Under the pieces are notes generated by a model. That model did not search any database. It worked only from the letters and a program-made list of their open reading frames with translations, and was not told the origin of the DNA. From positions 7,358 to 43,341 of the forward strand of contig MFEY01000008.1 in NCBI GenBank assembly GCA_001780035.1: 35,984 nt of DNA, in the 5' to 3' direction. This document shows, one piece after another, positions 6,016-27,825 of this stretch. This stretch comes from Candidatus Doudnabacteria bacterium RIFCSPHIGHO2_12_FULL_48_16. Its GTDB lineage: Bacteria; Patescibacteriota; Doudnabacteria; UBA920; O2-02-FULL-48-8. Both the position numbers and the translations under genes were made by a program. Each line of letters starts with the position of its first letter. Within the stretch, counting starts at the first letter, position 1.

Positions 6016-7273
6016 GCGAAAGGCTATGCAAATATTTTTAATTACAATTTTTACGCTTTTATCGGCAATTAGTTTTTTGCTGTTTTTATATAAATATAAA
6101 TTTTTTCCGTTGTGGCTGATGCTGTCGGTGTGGTTTGTGGCCATCGCGATTTCTCAACTGGATCTGTCGAGCCTGGAATGGGTCTGGCCGGTAAAATATT
6201 GGGCGCTGATTGGCGTCTCTTTGGTTAGCTTTGCTTTGGGATCGTGGCTGGGAGAAAGAAGGCGGCCGGTCAAGCGAGAAAATACAAAAATAAAAAATTT
6301 GCGTTGGGTAATTTATATTTTGTTTCTCGTCTCTTGTTTATGTTTGTATCTTTTTTATAAAAAAGCTGGCAATTTTCCGCTCTTGGCACCTGACCCGGAT
6401 GAGTTTCGTTTTGTCGCGGATGACCAAGTGCCCGGGCTGGTCAATTACGCGGCCCAGTTGGCGCGAATTTTTATCCCGTTGAGTTTCTTTTTGATGTTTG
6501 CGGAAACCTTCAATTGGAAAAAACATTGGGACTTAGTGGTGCTTTGTTTGCTCGGCACCGCAGGCATTATCCTATTCGCGTCCCGCACCCAAATATTTTT
6601 CATCGATCTTTGGGTCATGGCCTTGTATTTGTTGATGCGCCGCCCCAATCTTAAACAGGCGTTGAAATTTTATCCTTTCTTTTTAATTGTTTCAATTGTG
6701 GTCCTCTCTCTGGTGCCAATTATCCGCCAGACTAGGAGCTACGGATCCGATTATCTGGGAACCATTACCGGGATCGACACTTCTCATTACAATAAGCTGC
6801 AGAAAGCCTTGGTCCCGATCTATGTCGGGGTGTCATTTAACCAGCAGGCGCTGCTGCATGCCGAGCAGTATTATCAGACCCACGAGCTCCAGTATGGCAA
6901 AGTTTCGCTCGATCCCTTTACCAATATTTTCGGCAAGCTTATCAGGCCGTTAAATAACCTGAAATCGAATTACGATTTGGGCGCCATTTTCTATCCCTGG
7001 TGGAATACCGGAACATATTTGTTCCCGTTTGTGCAGGATTTCGGCACCGCCGCGTTTTACTTTGTGCCATTTGTTTTCGGCCTCATTTTGACCCTGCTTT
7101 GGCGCCACTGGCAGGTGAATCCGAATTTTTTGACCATCAATCTTTACGCTTACGCGATTTTTTTCATCGTCATGGGAGTATACGTGTCGTTTACCGTTCG
7201 CGCTGAGATGTATTTGGATCTGATGCTGTTGGTTGCCAGCTATTTATTTGTGACAAAAAAACATGAGAGTTAG
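6014..7273 (+). CDS. O-antigen/oligosaccharide polymerase-like membrane protein (Wzy-type)
   Basis: Multi-TM protein in a glycan cluster; RQTRSYGSDY loop; real start probably ATG 6026. Confidence 0.7.
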   Translation: MRKAMQIFLITIFTLLSAISFLLFLYKYKFFPLWLMLSVWFVAIAISQLDLSSLEWVWPVKYWALIGVSLVSFALGSWLGERRRPVKRENTKIKNLRWVIYILFLVSCLCLYLFYKKAGNFPLLAPDPDEFRFVADDQVPGLVNYAAQLARIFIPLSFFLMFAETFNWKKHWDLVVLCLLGTAGIILFASRTQIFFIDLWVMALYLLMRRPNLKQALKFYPFFLIVSIVVLSLVPIIRQTRSYGSDYLGTITGIDTSHYNKLQKALVPIYVGVSFNQQALLHAEQYYQTHELQYGKVSLDPFTNIFGKLIRPLNNLKSNYDLGAIFYPWWNTGTYLFPFVQDFGTAAFYFVPFVFGLILTLLWRHWQVNPNFLTINLYAYAIFFIVMGVYVSFTVRAEMYLDLMLLVASYLFVTKKHES

Positions 7274-8300
7274 CGTAATTATCCTGCCGTTTCGCAAAAC
7301 TGAAATCATCAAACCCGTGTTTGATGCGATTTTGGCGCAGACGCATAAAGATTTGGAAGTGATTGCCGTAATCAACGACCCGGCGGATGGATCGAAGGAA
7401 GTTATCCAGAAAAATCACCCCCAGGTTAAAATTATCGAGCCGGGCTGGAATTCCTGGTTCGCGGCGGGGAATAATCTCGGTATCAAAGCGTCCAGCGGCG
7501 AATTTATCCAACTGGTCAACGACGACTTGATTTTGGAGCCGACTTACATTGAAGAAGCGCTTAAGGCTTTTGCTGATCCCAAGGTTGCGGCCGCCACCGG
7601 CAAGATTTTGCGCTATGATTTTAGAAATAACAGAAAAACCAAGATTATCGACACGGTGGGAGTCAGTATGTCCAAATCCGGCCGGGCCCGGGACATTGGC
7701 CAAAATCAAGAAGATAAGGGTCAATTCGACTACGCACTACAAACTACACACTACAACCAAGTTTTTGGCGTCTCGGGTGCGGGGCCGATGTATCGACGGA
7801 GCGCTTTGGAGCGGGTAAAGTATTGTTATTCTGTCTTTGCGAGCGAAGCGAAGCAATCTCAGATTAAGATTGCCGCGTCGCCTTCGGCTCCTTGCAATGA
7901 CAGATGCGAATTCTTTGATGAGAGCTTTTTCGCTTATTGGGAAGATGTGGATCTTTCCTGGCGGTTCAATAATGCCGGGTATAAAAATGTTTATGTGCCG
8001 GCGGCCGTGGCCTATCATGGCCGCACTGCGGGGCAAGCCGCGGGCGGTTACCTGCATTTATTGAAATTTATCAAGCATCACAGTAAATTATCGAGCCAGG
8101 TTAAAAGGCTAAATTACAAAAATCATATCTTGATGTATGTTAAAAACACCAAATATATTCATCCGCTGTTCATCCTGCGCGAATTGGCCATGCTGGCATA
8201 CGTTCTGGTTTTCGAGACCTCGACTTTGAAAGTGGTTCCCGAATTATTCCGCCAAATCCCTCAAATTTTAAAGAAGCGAAAACAATGGCAATCCAATTGA
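7263..8300 (+). CDS. Glycosyltransferase family 2 (rhamnosyltransferase-like)
   Basis: N-terminal GT-A pattern; FFDESFFAYWEDVDLSWRFNNAGYK motif. Confidence 0.9.
   Translation: MRVSVIILPFRKTEIIKPVFDAILAQTHKDLEVIAVINDPADGSKEVIQKNHPQVKIIEPGWNSWFAAGNNLGIKASSGEFIQLVNDDLILEPTYIEEALKAFADPKVAAATGKILRYDFRNNRKTKIIDTVGVSMSKSGRARDIGQNQEDKGQFDYALQTTHYNQVFGVSGAGPMYRRSALERVKYCYSVFASEAKQSQIKIAASPSAPCNDRCEFFDESFFAYWEDVDLSWRFNNAGYKNVYVPAAVAYHGRTAGQAAGGYLHLLKFIKHHSKLSSQVKRLNYKNHILMYVKNTKYIHPLFILRELAMLAYVLVFETSTLKVVPELFRQIPQILKKRKQWQSN
7831..7903. repeat. Palindromic repeat ('TTTGCGAGCGAAGCGAAGCAATCT...AGATTGCCGCG...GCAATGACAG') inside a CDS
   Basis: 73-bp imperfect inverted repeat CTGTCTTTGCGAG.../...CTCCTTGCAATGACAG, read through in frame. 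Confidence 0.85.
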
Positions 8301-8855: not shown

Positions 8856-9710
8856 ATGGATTTATCAGTTATCATTTTAACCTACAACGCCAAGGACTTG
8901 TTGCGGCAGTGCCTGCAATCCGTTTTTGCTTCAGCGACCGGCTTTGAATTTGAAGTCCTGGTCCCGGACAATGGCTCAACTGACGGGGCGATTGAAATGG
9001 TGAAAGCCGAATTCCCACGGGCGAAATTGATTGAAAACGGCCGTAACTTGGGTTTTGCCAAGGGTAATAACGTCGCGATTAAACAAGCGGCTGGGCGGTA
9101 TGTGTTGTTGCTTAATCCCGACACAACGGTGCGGCTTGAGACTTTGGATTTATCCATCAAATATATGGACGCGCATTCGGATGTCGGCATCATGGGCGGC
9201 AAGGTCATCTTGCCCAACGGGCAATTGCACGAAGCCTGCAGGCGCCGGTTTCCCAATCCGGCCAATGCTTTTTTGCGCCTCTTCGGGTTCCGCAAATTTT
9301 CCAATTACAATTACCGCAACGTCCCGGTCAATCAGGAGATGGAGGTTGATTCCGTCGTCGGCGCCTACTTGCTGATCCGCAAATCCGTTATCGATCGGAT
9401 CGGACTCCTCGACGAGCGGTTTTTCATGTATGGCGAAGATTTGGATTGGTGCTGGCGGGCCAAGGCGGCGGGATTCAAGGTCATGTATTACCCGAAAGCC
9501 GAATTGACGCATTATTTGTATGGCTCGGCCAGGTTCGTAAAATTCCGATCGGTGGCCTGGGCGCATGAAGCGATGAAAATTTTTTACCGGAAACACTACG
9601 CCAATCAGCACAACCCGTTATTCAATGCCTTGGTCTACCTAGGGATAGGTATCCGCATGTATCTGGTGCTAATCATCAATATTTTTAGACACAAAAAAAC
9701 AGTCCATTAG
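8856..9710 (+). CDS. Glycosyltransferase family 2
   Basis: SVIILTYNAKDLLRQCLQSV...DNGSTDG...LLNPDTTV...FFMYGEDLDWCWRAK. Confidence 0.95.
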   Translation: MDLSVIILTYNAKDLLRQCLQSVFASATGFEFEVLVPDNGSTDGAIEMVKAEFPRAKLIENGRNLGFAKGNNVAIKQAAGRYVLLLNPDTTVRLETLDLSIKYMDAHSDVGIMGGKVILPNGQLHEACRRRFPNPANAFLRLFGFRKFSNYNYRNVPVNQEMEVDSVVGAYLLIRKSVIDRIGLLDERFFMYGEDLDWCWRAKAAGFKVMYYPKAELTHYLYGSARFVKFRSVAWAHEAMKIFYRKHYANQHNPLFNALVYLGIGIRMYLVLIINIFRHKKTVH

Positions 9711-9717
9711 ACTGTAA
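9695..9717 (-). terminator. Intrinsic terminator (minus strand), distal of a tandem pair
   Basis: Minus strand: ACAGTCtaatGGACTGTTTTTTTG. Confidence 0.75.
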
Positions 9718-9754
9718 AAAATTGGCGCATTTCTTTTTTATGGAAATGCGCCAT
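9715..9754 (-). terminator. Intrinsic terminator (minus strand), proximal of a tandem pair
   Basis: Minus strand: TGGCGCATTTCcataaaaaaGAAATGCGCCAATTTTTTAC. Confidence 0.75.
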
Positions 9755-9974
9755 GGGATGACGGGAGCGACTGCATGGCTGCGAAGGAGAGAGCCGAAAG
9801 TTCGTTGCTGGTAGAGTTTTGACTTTTGTTTCGGGGTGCAGCGTGGATTGCAGCGCATCGAAGTGATCACGTGCCCGTAGGATTCAGCCAGTCACTTGGA
9901 CCGTACAGTTTCATGCGAATTGGTTGCTTCGCCGTTGTGGTCCGTTGTTTTAGCCGATTTCCCCGCGCTGTGGC

Positions 9975-10145
9975 TTACGAAGTAAGGCGCTTGTGCGTAG
10001 TGCGGTGTAGGATTCGGTCGATCATCCTCATCCGTGTCCTCCTAGTTGGATTTGCGGTGCGACCAGGGATGCGGGCGTTTCCGCGTCGACTTTTTGAACC
10101 GACTTCTGGTGATAGTTTCCTCCTGTCGCCTAGCGCCTTGAACAT
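9975..10145 (-). CDS. Small basic ORF, 56 aa (MFKALGDRRKLSPEVGSKSRRGNARIPGRTANPTRRTRMRMIDRILHRTTHKRLTS)
   Basis: Open ATG-to-TAA frame starting 17 nt after the predicted TSS; below the ORF track length cutoff; coding status uncertain. Confidence 0.3.
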   Translation of the reverse strand: MFKALGDRRKLSPEVGSKSRRGNARIPGRTANPTRRTRMRMIDRILHRTTHKRLTS

Positions 10146-10168
10146 CTTTACCGACGCTGGATAGGAAA

Positions 10169-10197
10169 AGTATATTACTCAATTAAATTGCTGTCAA
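10169..10197 (-). promoter_or_regulatory. Sigma70-type promoter TTGACA-N17-TATACT (minus strand)
   Basis: Minus strand: TTGACAgcaatttaattgagtaaTATACT. Confidence 0.8.
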
Positions 10198-10255: not shown

Positions 10256-11506
10256 ATGGAATTACATCCCGAAACAAACACCAGCTCCAGGCAAATGCGT
10301 TTTTATGCTATTATTATGGTTTTATTCGTGGCGGTTTTCGGCTTGGGATATGGCGTCGGCGAAGGCCGAGTCAAACTTGAATCAGGCAAATTAAACATAT
10401 CCAAAGGCAGCGTGGCCACTTCGGCCGACTACTCACTGTTATGGGAAGCTTTGGATGCGGTCAACGGTAAATATGTCGACCGGCCGCTGGATCAGCAAAA
10501 ATTGCTCTATGGCGCCGTGGATGGGATGGTTGCCGCCACCGGGGATCCATACACCACTTTTTTTGATCCGGAGGAGGCCAAGCAGTTTACGGAAGATCTC
10601 CGCGGATTTTTCAGCGGCATCGGCGCCCAGATCGGCATGAAGGACAAGCAAATTGTGGTCATCGCACCGCTGGACGGCACGCCAGCTCAGAAAGCGGGGA
10701 TTGCGCCCGGCGATGCGATTTTGGCGATCAACGGCGAGACGACCGAGGGCATGGCAGTGGATGTGGCGGTAACCAAAATCCGTGGCCCGATCGGCACAAA
10801 AGTCACGCTCAAAATTTTACCCAAGGATCAGAACGAGGCCAAGGATGTCACTATCACTCGGGCCAAAATTGAAATTAAGAGCGTGAAGCTCGAAACCAAG
10901 GAAGTGAACGGCCCCGCCGCTGCGGGCGGGACAAGTAAAAAGATCGCGGTCATCAAGCTGTCGGAATTTGGCGAGGATACCAAGGGCCTGCTGGATCAAG
11001 CTGTCGGCACAATAACTACGGGCAATTACAGCGGAGTGATCCTCGATCTGCGCAACAATCCCGGCGGATACCTGGATACGGCTGTGACCACTATTTCGAA
11101 TTGGATCGATGCGGACAAGGTCGCGGTCAAGGAAATCGGCTACAATAAAAAAGAAAATGACTACAAAACCGCAGGTCTGCCGCGGCTCAAGGGCATGAAG
11201 ACGGTTGTTCTGGTCAATGGCGGTTCGGCTTCGGCTTCGGAAATTGTTTCCGGCGCGCTTCAGGATTACAAGGTCGCGACGCTGGTCGGGGAGAAAACCT
11301 TTGGCAAGGGATCAGTTCAGGAATTGCAGGATTTGAAGGGCAACACCGAAATTAAGATTACCGTGGCGAAATGGTTTACACCCAAAGGGCGGGGGATTGA
11401 TAAGACCGGCCTGGAGCCGGATATTAATGTCGAGCTGACAGCGGATGATATAAAAAACGAGAAGGATCCGCAGATGGATAAAGCGATGGAGTTGCTCGGT
11501 AAATAG
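10256..11506 (+). CDS. S41 family C-terminal processing peptidase (PDZ domain)
   Basis: PDZ region GIAPGDAILAINGE; VLVNGGSASASEIVSGALQD; GEKTFGKGSVQ. Confidence 0.95.
   Translation: MELHPETNTSSRQMRFYAIIMVLFVAVFGLGYGVGEGRVKLESGKLNISKGSVATSADYSLLWEALDAVNGKYVDRPLDQQKLLYGAVDGMVAATGDPYTTFFDPEEAKQFTEDLRGFFSGIGAQIGMKDKQIVVIAPLDGTPAQKAGIAPGDAILAINGETTEGMAVDVAVTKIRGPIGTKVTLKILPKDQNEAKDVTITRAKIEIKSVKLETKEVNGPAAAGGTSKKIAVIKLSEFGEDTKGLLDQAVGTITTGNYSGVILDLRNNPGGYLDTAVTTISNWIDADKVAVKEIGYNKKENDYKTAGLPRLKGMKTVVLVNGGSASASEIVSGALQDYKVATLVGEKTFGKGSVQELQDLKGNTEIKITVAKWFTPKGRGIDKTGLEPDINVELTADDIKNEKDPQMDKAMELLGK
10913..10930. repeat. In-frame GC-rich palindrome CCCGCC-gctgcg-GGCGGG
   Basis: Seen directly; encodes the PAAAGG linker in the S41 peptidase. 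Confidence 0.6.
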
Positions 11507-11686: not shown

Positions 11687-13552
11687 ATGACATCACAAGA
11701 AATACGCGAAAAGTTTCTTAAATTTTACGAATCGAAAGGCCATGATCATAAGAGGATTCCTTCGGCCTCTTTGGTGCCGGAAGGCGATTCAACTACGCTT
11801 TTTACCGGTTCGGGCATGCAGCCCATGATGCCATATCTTTTGGGAGCGAAACATCCACTCGGCAATAGGATTGTGGATTCTCAAAAAAGTTTCCGGGCCG
11901 AGGATATTGAAGAAGTTGGTGATAATCGCCACACAACTTTTTTTGAAATGCTTGGGAACTGGTCATTTGGTGATTACTGGAAAGAAGAACAATTGAGTTG
12001 GCTTTTTGAATTTTTAACGAAAGAAGTCGGACTCCCGCCCGAACGTCTTTATGTATCTGTATTTGCTGGTGATCGGGAGAATAATATACCGCGGGATGAA
12101 GAAAGTCCGGCAATATGGCAAAAGCTTTTTGGGAATGCCAAAGTAGTAGAACTTATTACGGAAGAACAAGCCAGCAATCTTGGCATGCAAGATGGTAAAA
12201 TCTTTTATTATGGTTCCAAGAAAAATTGGTGGAGTCGGGCGGGGATACCATCAGATATGCCAGTAGGCGAACCGGGCGGTCCAGATTCAGAGGTATTTTA
12301 CCGATTTGATGTTGAACACGATGAGAAATATGGAAAATATTGCCATCCAAACTGCGATTGCGGCCAGTTTATGGAAATCGGCAACTCAGTTTTTATGGAA
12401 TATGTAAAAACCGAGAGAGGTTTTGAGAAATTGAAGCAGAGAAATGTGGATTTTGGTGGTGGTTTGGAAAGAATTACCGCAGCATCAAATAATACTTCAG
12501 ATGTTTTTCATATTGATTCGCTTAAAGTAATTGTTGATAAAATTCAGACCTTAGCACAGAAACAAGATTTACACGCAGAAAGAATTATTGCTGATCATTT
12601 ACGCGCGGCTGTATTTTTGTTGGCGGACGGTGTTACCCCTTCAAACAAAGATCGCGGCTATATTCTGCGCCGGTTGATCCGCCGCTCCGTGACTTGTGGG
12701 CAAAAAATCGGAATAGAACAGGATTTCACTTCCGAGATTGTAAAAGTAGTTGTGGAGGTTTATAAACAAGTTTACTCTGAATTGAATCAAGGGAAGATTG
12801 GCGTGGAAATCAAAAAAGAAGAATTAAAATTTCGTGAAACCTTAGGGAGAGCAATGGTCAGATTTGATGAAGTGGTTGAAACGTTTATAAATGGTCAATT
12901 AACAGATAAAATATTACAACGTCATACAGTTTTCGATTTATTTCAGTCATACGGCCTTCCGTTTGAAACTATAAAAGAGCTTGCAAAAGAAAAAGGTATA
13001 GGGATAGATGAGGTTGCTTTTGAGGAAGATTTAAATAAGCATCAAGAACTCTCCCGTACACAATCCGCGGGACAGTTTAAAGGCGGACTGGCTAGTCATT
13101 CGGACAAAACTGTTCGCTTGCATACGGCCACGCATTTGATGAATGCGGCGCTGCGGAAAGTTTTGGGCGAGAATGTCTGGCAGAAGGGGAGCAACATTAC
13201 GGAAGAGCGAACTCGGTTTGATTTTACGCACGATGCGAAAATGACCGATGAGCAAAAACAGGAAGTTGAAAAACTGGTCAACGATTGGATCAGCCGGGAT
13301 TTGTCTGTGAAAAAAGAAGTCATGCCTCTGGAAGAAGCCCGCAAACTGGGCGCCATCGGGGTGTTTGGGGAAAAATACCCGGATACGGTATCCGTTTACA
13401 CGGTTTTGGATTCGAAAAACGGAGAAGTGGTTTCCCGCGAGTTTTGCGGCGGCCCCCACGTGGAGCATACGGGCGTGATTGGCAAATTCAAAATCCAAAA
13501 AGAAGAGGCTGTCGCCGCCGGCGTGCGCCGAATTAAAGCCGTGATTGAATAA
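11687..13552 (+). CDS. alaS: Alanyl-tRNA synthetase (short form)
   Basis: RKFLKFYESKGHDHKRIPSASLVPEGDSTTLFTGSGMQPM...; HTATHLMNAALRKVLG; C-x3-H near CGGPHVEHTG; no C-Ala region. Confidence 0.93.
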   Translation: MTSQEIREKFLKFYESKGHDHKRIPSASLVPEGDSTTLFTGSGMQPMMPYLLGAKHPLGNRIVDSQKSFRAEDIEEVGDNRHTTFFEMLGNWSFGDYWKEEQLSWLFEFLTKEVGLPPERLYVSVFAGDRENNIPRDEESPAIWQKLFGNAKVVELITEEQASNLGMQDGKIFYYGSKKNWWSRAGIPSDMPVGEPGGPDSEVFYRFDVEHDEKYGKYCHPNCDCGQFMEIGNSVFMEYVKTERGFEKLKQRNVDFGGGLERITAASNNTSDVFHIDSLKVIVDKIQTLAQKQDLHAERIIADHLRAAVFLLADGVTPSNKDRGYILRRLIRRSVTCGQKIGIEQDFTSEIVKVVVEVYKQVYSELNQGKIGVEIKKEELKFRETLGRAMVRFDEVVETFINGQLTDKILQRHTVFDLFQSYGLPFETIKELAKEKGIGIDEVAFEEDLNKHQELSRTQSAGQFKGGLASHSDKTVRLHTATHLMNAALRKVLGENVWQKGSNITEERTRFDFTHDAKMTDEQKQEVEKLVNDWISRDLSVKKEVMPLEEARKLGAIGVFGEKYPDTVSVYTVLDSKNGEVVSREFCGGPHVEHTGVIGKFKIQKEEAVAAGVRRIKAVIE

Positions 13553-27437: not shown

Positions 27438-27825
27438 GCTTTCTTAAAGTTAGTGCGCAATCAAGCCTAAAGTTTACTTTAGGTTAGGAAAGTCCGAACA
27501 CGTTGGTTGAATGAAATCCTCGCGAGTTCATGCAGCCTCACGTAGCGGGTAATCCCCGCCATGAGTGATCAAGGGATGCGAACAGGAACGCTTGCGGCCG
27601 AGAGGCCGTAAGCATCCGGCCAAGTGGCCGGATGACGCCTGGCGGCAACGCCGGGAGTGAAACGGCTAAATTCCTACGTGACAGTGCAATGTCAAATAGG
27701 TCCCGATTTATCGGGACGGGTTGACAGCTTGAGCCAAACAGCAATGTTTGGCCCAGAGAGATGATTGCTTCCCCCGATTTATCGGGGTCAGACAGAATTC
27801 GGCTTATAGCTATCTTGGAGAAAGC
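27438..27825 (+). ncRNA. rnpB: RNase P RNA (class A-like)
   Basis: GGAAAGTCCGAACAC; GGGAGTGAAACGGCTAAATTCCTACGTGA; GACAGAATTCGGCTTATAG; P1 GCTTTCT/AGAAAGC. Confidence 0.88.

Follow-up and report, generated by a model that had tools for sequence, protein, structure and literature searches.

A candidate mini-ORF transcript with strong ribosome-binding sites in one family of Doudnabacteria

Analysis of the window, i.e. the whole stretch of 35,984 nucleotides from a Doudnabacteria genome, points to an unannotated transcription unit on the minus strand, between a glycosyltransferase gene and a peptidase gene, which appears to be real, lineage-restricted and fast-evolving. The explanation that fits best, held with about even confidence, is a ribosome-loaded mini-ORF transcript specific to one Doudnabacteria family, acting as a dual-function RNA with tiny basic peptides; the dual-function part of this reading, i.e. 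peptides plus a role of the RNA, is probable. The locus has kept its position, promoter and ribosome-binding sites despite an almost complete turnover of the RNA body, and ordinary sequence-based methods of RNA discovery would fail on such turnover. If translated, the near-cognate, Arg-rich leader peptides would join the repertoire of reduced CPR genomes. Literature searches returned nothing about non-coding RNAs or small-peptide RNAs of Doudnabacteria.

Promoter, terminators and genomic setting

The predicted promoter (TTGACA-N17-TATACT; 10169..10197, minus strand) agrees with the consensus in 11 of 12 letters and is the top-scoring site of the 4 kb scanned, in which 12 promoter-like sites with at least 9/12 consensus letters were found versus 4.9 expected from shuffles. 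Both this promoter and the roughly 450 nt without a long ORF that follow it had been described in the original prediction and are borne out, the ORF list containing no minus-strand frame of at least 90 aa within 9695-10197. With the start placed 7 nt after the -10 box, the predicted transcript would span about 470 nt (9693..10162, minus strand) from the promoter to the terminators. Two consecutive intrinsic terminators, likewise anticipated, are present in the sequence and in the MFE fold. Terminator 1 (TGGCGCATTTC...GAAATGCGCCA-ATTTTTT; 9716..9753, minus strand) has a stem of 10-11 bp and a loop of 9, and terminator 2 (ACAGTC-TAAT-GGACTGT-TTTTTT; 9693..9715, minus strand) was the only one reported by the terminator scan, since loops were limited there to 8. 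Terminator 2 overlaps the 3' end and stop codon of the opposing glycosyltransferase gene, its U-tract being the antisense of the Lys-Lys codons of that gene, and its hairpin and U-tract are partially conserved in relatives. The unit is thus equipped with a predicted promoter and terminator of its own, and downstream of it the minus strand contains no gene for it to attenuate.

Two plus-strand genes, named from their sequences, serve as synteny anchors: a GT2-type glycosyltransferase gene (8856..9710), tail to tail with the unit, and an S41 (CtpA-like) peptidase gene (10256..11506), divergent from it. The S41 gene is present in 47 of the 49 genomes of the order. Among the 13 family genomes that carry it, seven (G000, G004, G008, G003, G013, G010 and G006) show, at the equivalent place of the GT2/S41 junction, a divergent promoter in which the TTGACA is perfect, followed by a unit of 0.4-1.0 kb with Shine-Dalgarno (SD) sites and a terminal hairpin. 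A similar-sized gap with weaker promoter-like sequences occurs in G007 and G009, giving 9/13 when these are counted, and the remaining four genomes are without the unit, having either short gaps (G011, G002, G001) or another gene (G005). In the sampled junctions of other families of the order only short or AT-rich gaps were found, with no such unit. The S41 protein tree fits one gain plus losses as well as several gains. The Doudnabacteria hits among GTDB contigs were all duplicates and added no genome beyond those already in the comparison set. The unit is single-copy, as searches with three different members as query found no second copies elsewhere, and a degenerate DRILHR pattern matched in the window and in G004 only.

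The promoter and the last terminator can be aligned among the relatives, while the body has diverged almost beyond alignment except for short blocks; of the conservation on which the original prediction was to be judged, that of the promoter and last terminator was found and that of the internal sequence mostly was not. The predicted transcription unit is well supported and rises above chance, because the position and divergent direction of its promoter are common to the relatives and because GGAGG is enriched over dinucleotide shuffles.

Several observations concern the neighbouring genes. At the GT2/S41 junction of G005 (L043), the place of the RNA unit is taken by a metallo-beta-lactamase-fold-like gene (minus strand, upstream of the S41 gene; positions 653-1294 in a stretch of 1557 bases), so that this junction tolerates insertions. 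Weak matches to the Rfam family Rp_sR47 (Rickettsia sRNA47) in L033, L034, L035, L037, L040 and L042 fall on the S41 coding region, and perhaps Rp_sR47 represents no more than the antisense of ctpA-like genes. In a GT-like ORF of the window (7263-8300, plus strand), an in-frame stretch SVFASEAKQSQIKIAASPSAPCNDR at about 7845-7935 resembles the translated palindromic repeat elements known in other bacteria. An alanyl-tRNA synthetase-like ORF (11687-13552) encodes 621 aa and is shorter than the usual enzyme of roughly 870 aa.

Ribosome-binding sites and mini-ORFs

The two expected AGGAGG motifs are located at 10119..10124 (ribosome-binding site 1) and 10038..10043 (ribosome-binding site 2), both on the minus strand. 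The 16S tail of the source genome, also given as CCTCCTTT, contains GGATCACCTCCTTT, which makes GGAGG sites good ribosome-binding sites. The nine units together contain 27 GGAGG versus 6.6 expected from dinucleotide shuffles, and 9 GGAGG-N3-8-ATG versus 0.31 (about 30-fold); CCTCC is not enriched in these units against the same shuffles. The unit of L041 has no GGAGG. With the tail CCTCCTTT present, sequestration of the anti-SD by the GGA motifs of the unit is possible. The other role proposed for these motifs, titration of a CsrA-like protein, is unsupported: CsrA (PF02599) was found in 0/5 family genomes, while three control genomes gave matches, and a CsrB/CsrC-like RNA was rejected on this ground. 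A repeated GAATCCTAC motif does occur twice, as had been noted, but relatives do not share this repetition, which is thus probably due to chance.

In the window, the putative mini-ORF 1 (ITRSRFKKSTRKRPHPWSHRKSN, then stop; 10042..10113, minus strand) begins with ATC 5 nt after AGGAGG, and its stop codon overlaps ribosome-binding site 2. The first SD of the seven clear members (GGAGG in six, AGGAG in L039) is followed at +4/+5 by a near-cognate codon in 7/7 cases, versus 11/35 in a control set of promoter-GGAGG sites of the order. These codons are ATC in the window, TTG in L034 and L039, ATA in L033 and L040, and ACG in L035 and L037; in L042 no near-cognate start is clearly recognisable at the usual spacing. 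An ATG 3-12 nt after the first SD is found in 0/7 clear members and in 24/35 controls (Fisher p = 0.001), p-values serving as guides only, since the near-cognate pattern was noticed before it was tested. Near-cognate codons, ATA, ATC and ACG among them, usually make poor starts. The frames opened by them are 23-90 codons long and Arg-rich in all seven clear members, with 23-37% Arg/Lys in each. Aligned by hand, mini-ORF 1 of L037 and L040 gives 34 aa in the near-cognate frame with whole-codon gaps, and both peptides end in RRCxA followed by the stop codon.

A second mini-ORF, with an ATG start, follows in most members; judged by eye, equivalents are possible in L037, L039 and L033. The window copy, mini-ORF 2 (MRMIDRILHRTTHKRLTS, then stop; 9975..10031, minus strand), is putatively coding and conserved in L034 (G004), where it corresponds to MQMLDRILHRKTHARIISTKKI. 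Its coding signal is suggestive only, as sense and antisense frames of this window/L034 block match about equally well. In rate of divergence the mini-ORF peptides nearly equal the RNA, and Pfam gave no match to them. Of the identities put forward originally, a polycistronic small-peptide mRNA appears to fit the window copy best, because AGGAGG stands at the mini-ORF starts and these positions recur in the relatives, with the coding signal staying suggestive. On the opposite strand, a 112-codon ORF (9826-10164, plus strand) was rejected as a gene; it has no Pfam match, and the long antisense frames that recur in relatives show no homology outside conserved DNA blocks.

Outside the family unit, an early GGAGG after a TTGACA promoter, with no long ATG ORF close to that promoter, was observed in L078, L089, L091, L099 and L103; farther on, and beyond a hairpin in L089 and L103, comes the actual ORF, which has a start of its own. 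The Doudnabacteria order may commonly use leader ORFs or STAB-SD-like sites, and these leaders hint at a wider theme.

Folding, proposed mechanism and competing explanations

No credible Rfam match was obtained for the unit at gathering or relaxed thresholds. It had been stated that hallmarks of tmRNA, RNase P, 6S and SRP RNA were missing, which is confirmed for the first two by their location, tmRNA being found elsewhere in the source genome and a class A RNase P RNA gene at 27445-27822 (plus strand), outside the unit; 6S and SRP RNA are excluded only by the absent Rfam match. Compared with dinucleotide shuffles, stable folds are predicted in six of nine units, with z from -3.5 to -7.0 (L037 -7.0, L039 -4.8, L041 -4.7, L040 -4.4, L033 -4.2, L035 -3.5), and moderate ones in L042 (-2.5) and L034 (-2.1). 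The window copy, at z -0.9 to -1.1, folds hardly better than its shuffles. In a 3' block of L037 and L039, none of the 34 predicted pairs is broken and 8 are preserved through changes, which affect both partners in 2 of them; this covariation concerns the one alignable block of two sequences, the rest of the body being unalignable. The window/L034 block that contains mini-ORF 2 has almost no common fold. The structured RNA of the original prediction is accordingly a suitable description of the relatives and not clearly of the window copy. Going by these predicted folds, the relatives carry the structured part, and for the window copy the mini-ORFs give the best description. It is the strong folding in most relatives that leads to the reading as a dual-function RNA.

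In the mechanism proposed for such an RNA, a strong sigma-70-type promoter would drive a transcript of 0.4-1 kb ending in intrinsic terminators, and ribosomes would load it at two or more strong SD sites. Site 1 would open the Arg-rich mini-ORF at a near-cognate codon, and since such a start behind a strong SD implies slow initiation, the 30S subunit may linger there. A 30S subunit held at site 1 may, like STAB-SD, shield the 5' end from RNase J, an enzyme present in 5/5 genomes examined. In the window copy, translation through mini-ORF 1 would reach site 2, which serves mini-ORF 2, so that translational coupling is plausible. The folded RNA would have its own role, probably a trans-acting one. 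A further formulation, considered unlikely, is a ribosome-engaging RNA class of one CPR family, in which the repeated SDs, non-AUG start and Arg-rich chain would hold or sense initiating ribosomes (IF3/30S status) and the folded body would regulate.

A structured RNA without any coding role, in which the GGAGG sites bind free 30S subunits as a ribosome sponge or as a STAB-SD-like 5' stabiliser blocking RNase J and the mini-ORFs are incidental, is rather doubtful. It would account for the strong folds of the relatives, the covariation in the L037/L039 block and the first SDs without an ATG at 3-12 nt in 7/7 members, a feature shared with the early GGAGG sites of other Doudnabacteria leaders. 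RNase J occurs in all five genomes, and recruitment of 30S without initiation, with RNase J1 blocked, has a precedent in STAB-SD (PMC4113751). However, the roughly 30-fold enrichment of GGAGG-N3-8-ATG and the near-cognate Arg-rich frame after the first SD would be superfluous for a pure docking site, and pairing within the folds is predicted for many of the GGAGG sites.

A decaying gene, i.e. an ORFan mRNA with promoter, GGAGG, ATG ORF and terminator whose frame has eroded, is distinctly unlikely. Doudnabacteria commonly have promoter-GGAGG-ATG genes whose proteins are of unknown kind, and another gene does lie at the junction in G005. Decay should, however, also affect the promoter, and seven species retain a perfect TTGACA together with a strong SD despite the diverging body; moreover, SD sites are enriched rather than lost, and most units fold beyond their shuffles.

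Also very improbable is a type I toxin-antitoxin module of the hok/sok kind, in which a leader ORF and a toxin ORF are coupled on a stable folded mRNA accompanied by an antisense RNA. The folded mRNA, the adjoining mini-ORFs and the weak first start would agree with it, as would the SD1 region, which in L040, L033 and to some extent L035 can pair close to the 3' end. This pairing is weak in L031 and absent from L034, L037 and L039, so a common 5'-3' foldback sequestering SD1 was rejected as inconsistent across members. Furthermore, the peptides are basic and not hydrophobic, the unit is single-copy, and no strong plus-strand promoter lies inside it, only 9/12 sites at 10147-10176 and 9686-9713. 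Least probable of all is a chance promoter with chance terminators in an intergenic insertion giving no functional transcript, for although the unit is known from sequence only and the hairpin of terminator 2 overlaps the GT2 coding sequence, seven genomes have the promoter conserved both in its position and in its sequence, and the SD sites are enriched.

Comparison with known systems

The hok/sok type I toxin mRNAs are folded and stable, with adjoining mini-ORFs, a weak first start and membrane peptides. The unit resembles them in its predicted folding, adjoining mini-ORFs and weak first start, and differs from them in its basic rather than membrane peptides, in a 5'-3' foldback not common to the members and in that no antisense promoter was seen within it. 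The infC gene (IF3) is autoregulated through its AUU start. With infC the unit shares a near-cognate start behind a strong SD, an IF3-sensitive design, but it contains no initiation factor gene; to regard it as an IF3 sensor by this analogy is speculation.

At the STAB-SD of Bacillus thuringiensis cry3A (PMC4113751), 30S subunits are recruited with no translation being initiated, and RNase J1 is blocked. The likeness consists of an AGGAGG near the 5' end, no AUG at normal spacing and the presence of RNase J in the host. In contrast to STAB-SD, the unit has a near-cognate mini-ORF behind the AGGAGG and no long ORF downstream.

The closest known systems also include the dual-function small RNAs, such as SgrS/SgrT, RNAIII and VcdRP (PMC8672173, PMC5521070). 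In contrast to these, the unit has two or more SDs, a near-cognate first start opening an Arg-rich frame, very fast evolution and no sequence match to them. As in these RNAs, there is a promoter and a terminator of its own, a predicted folded RNA of a few hundred nucleotides, one or more short ORFs behind a strong SD and no downstream gene. As interpreted here, the unit would count as a variety of dual-function or small-peptide RNA and would not constitute a new category.
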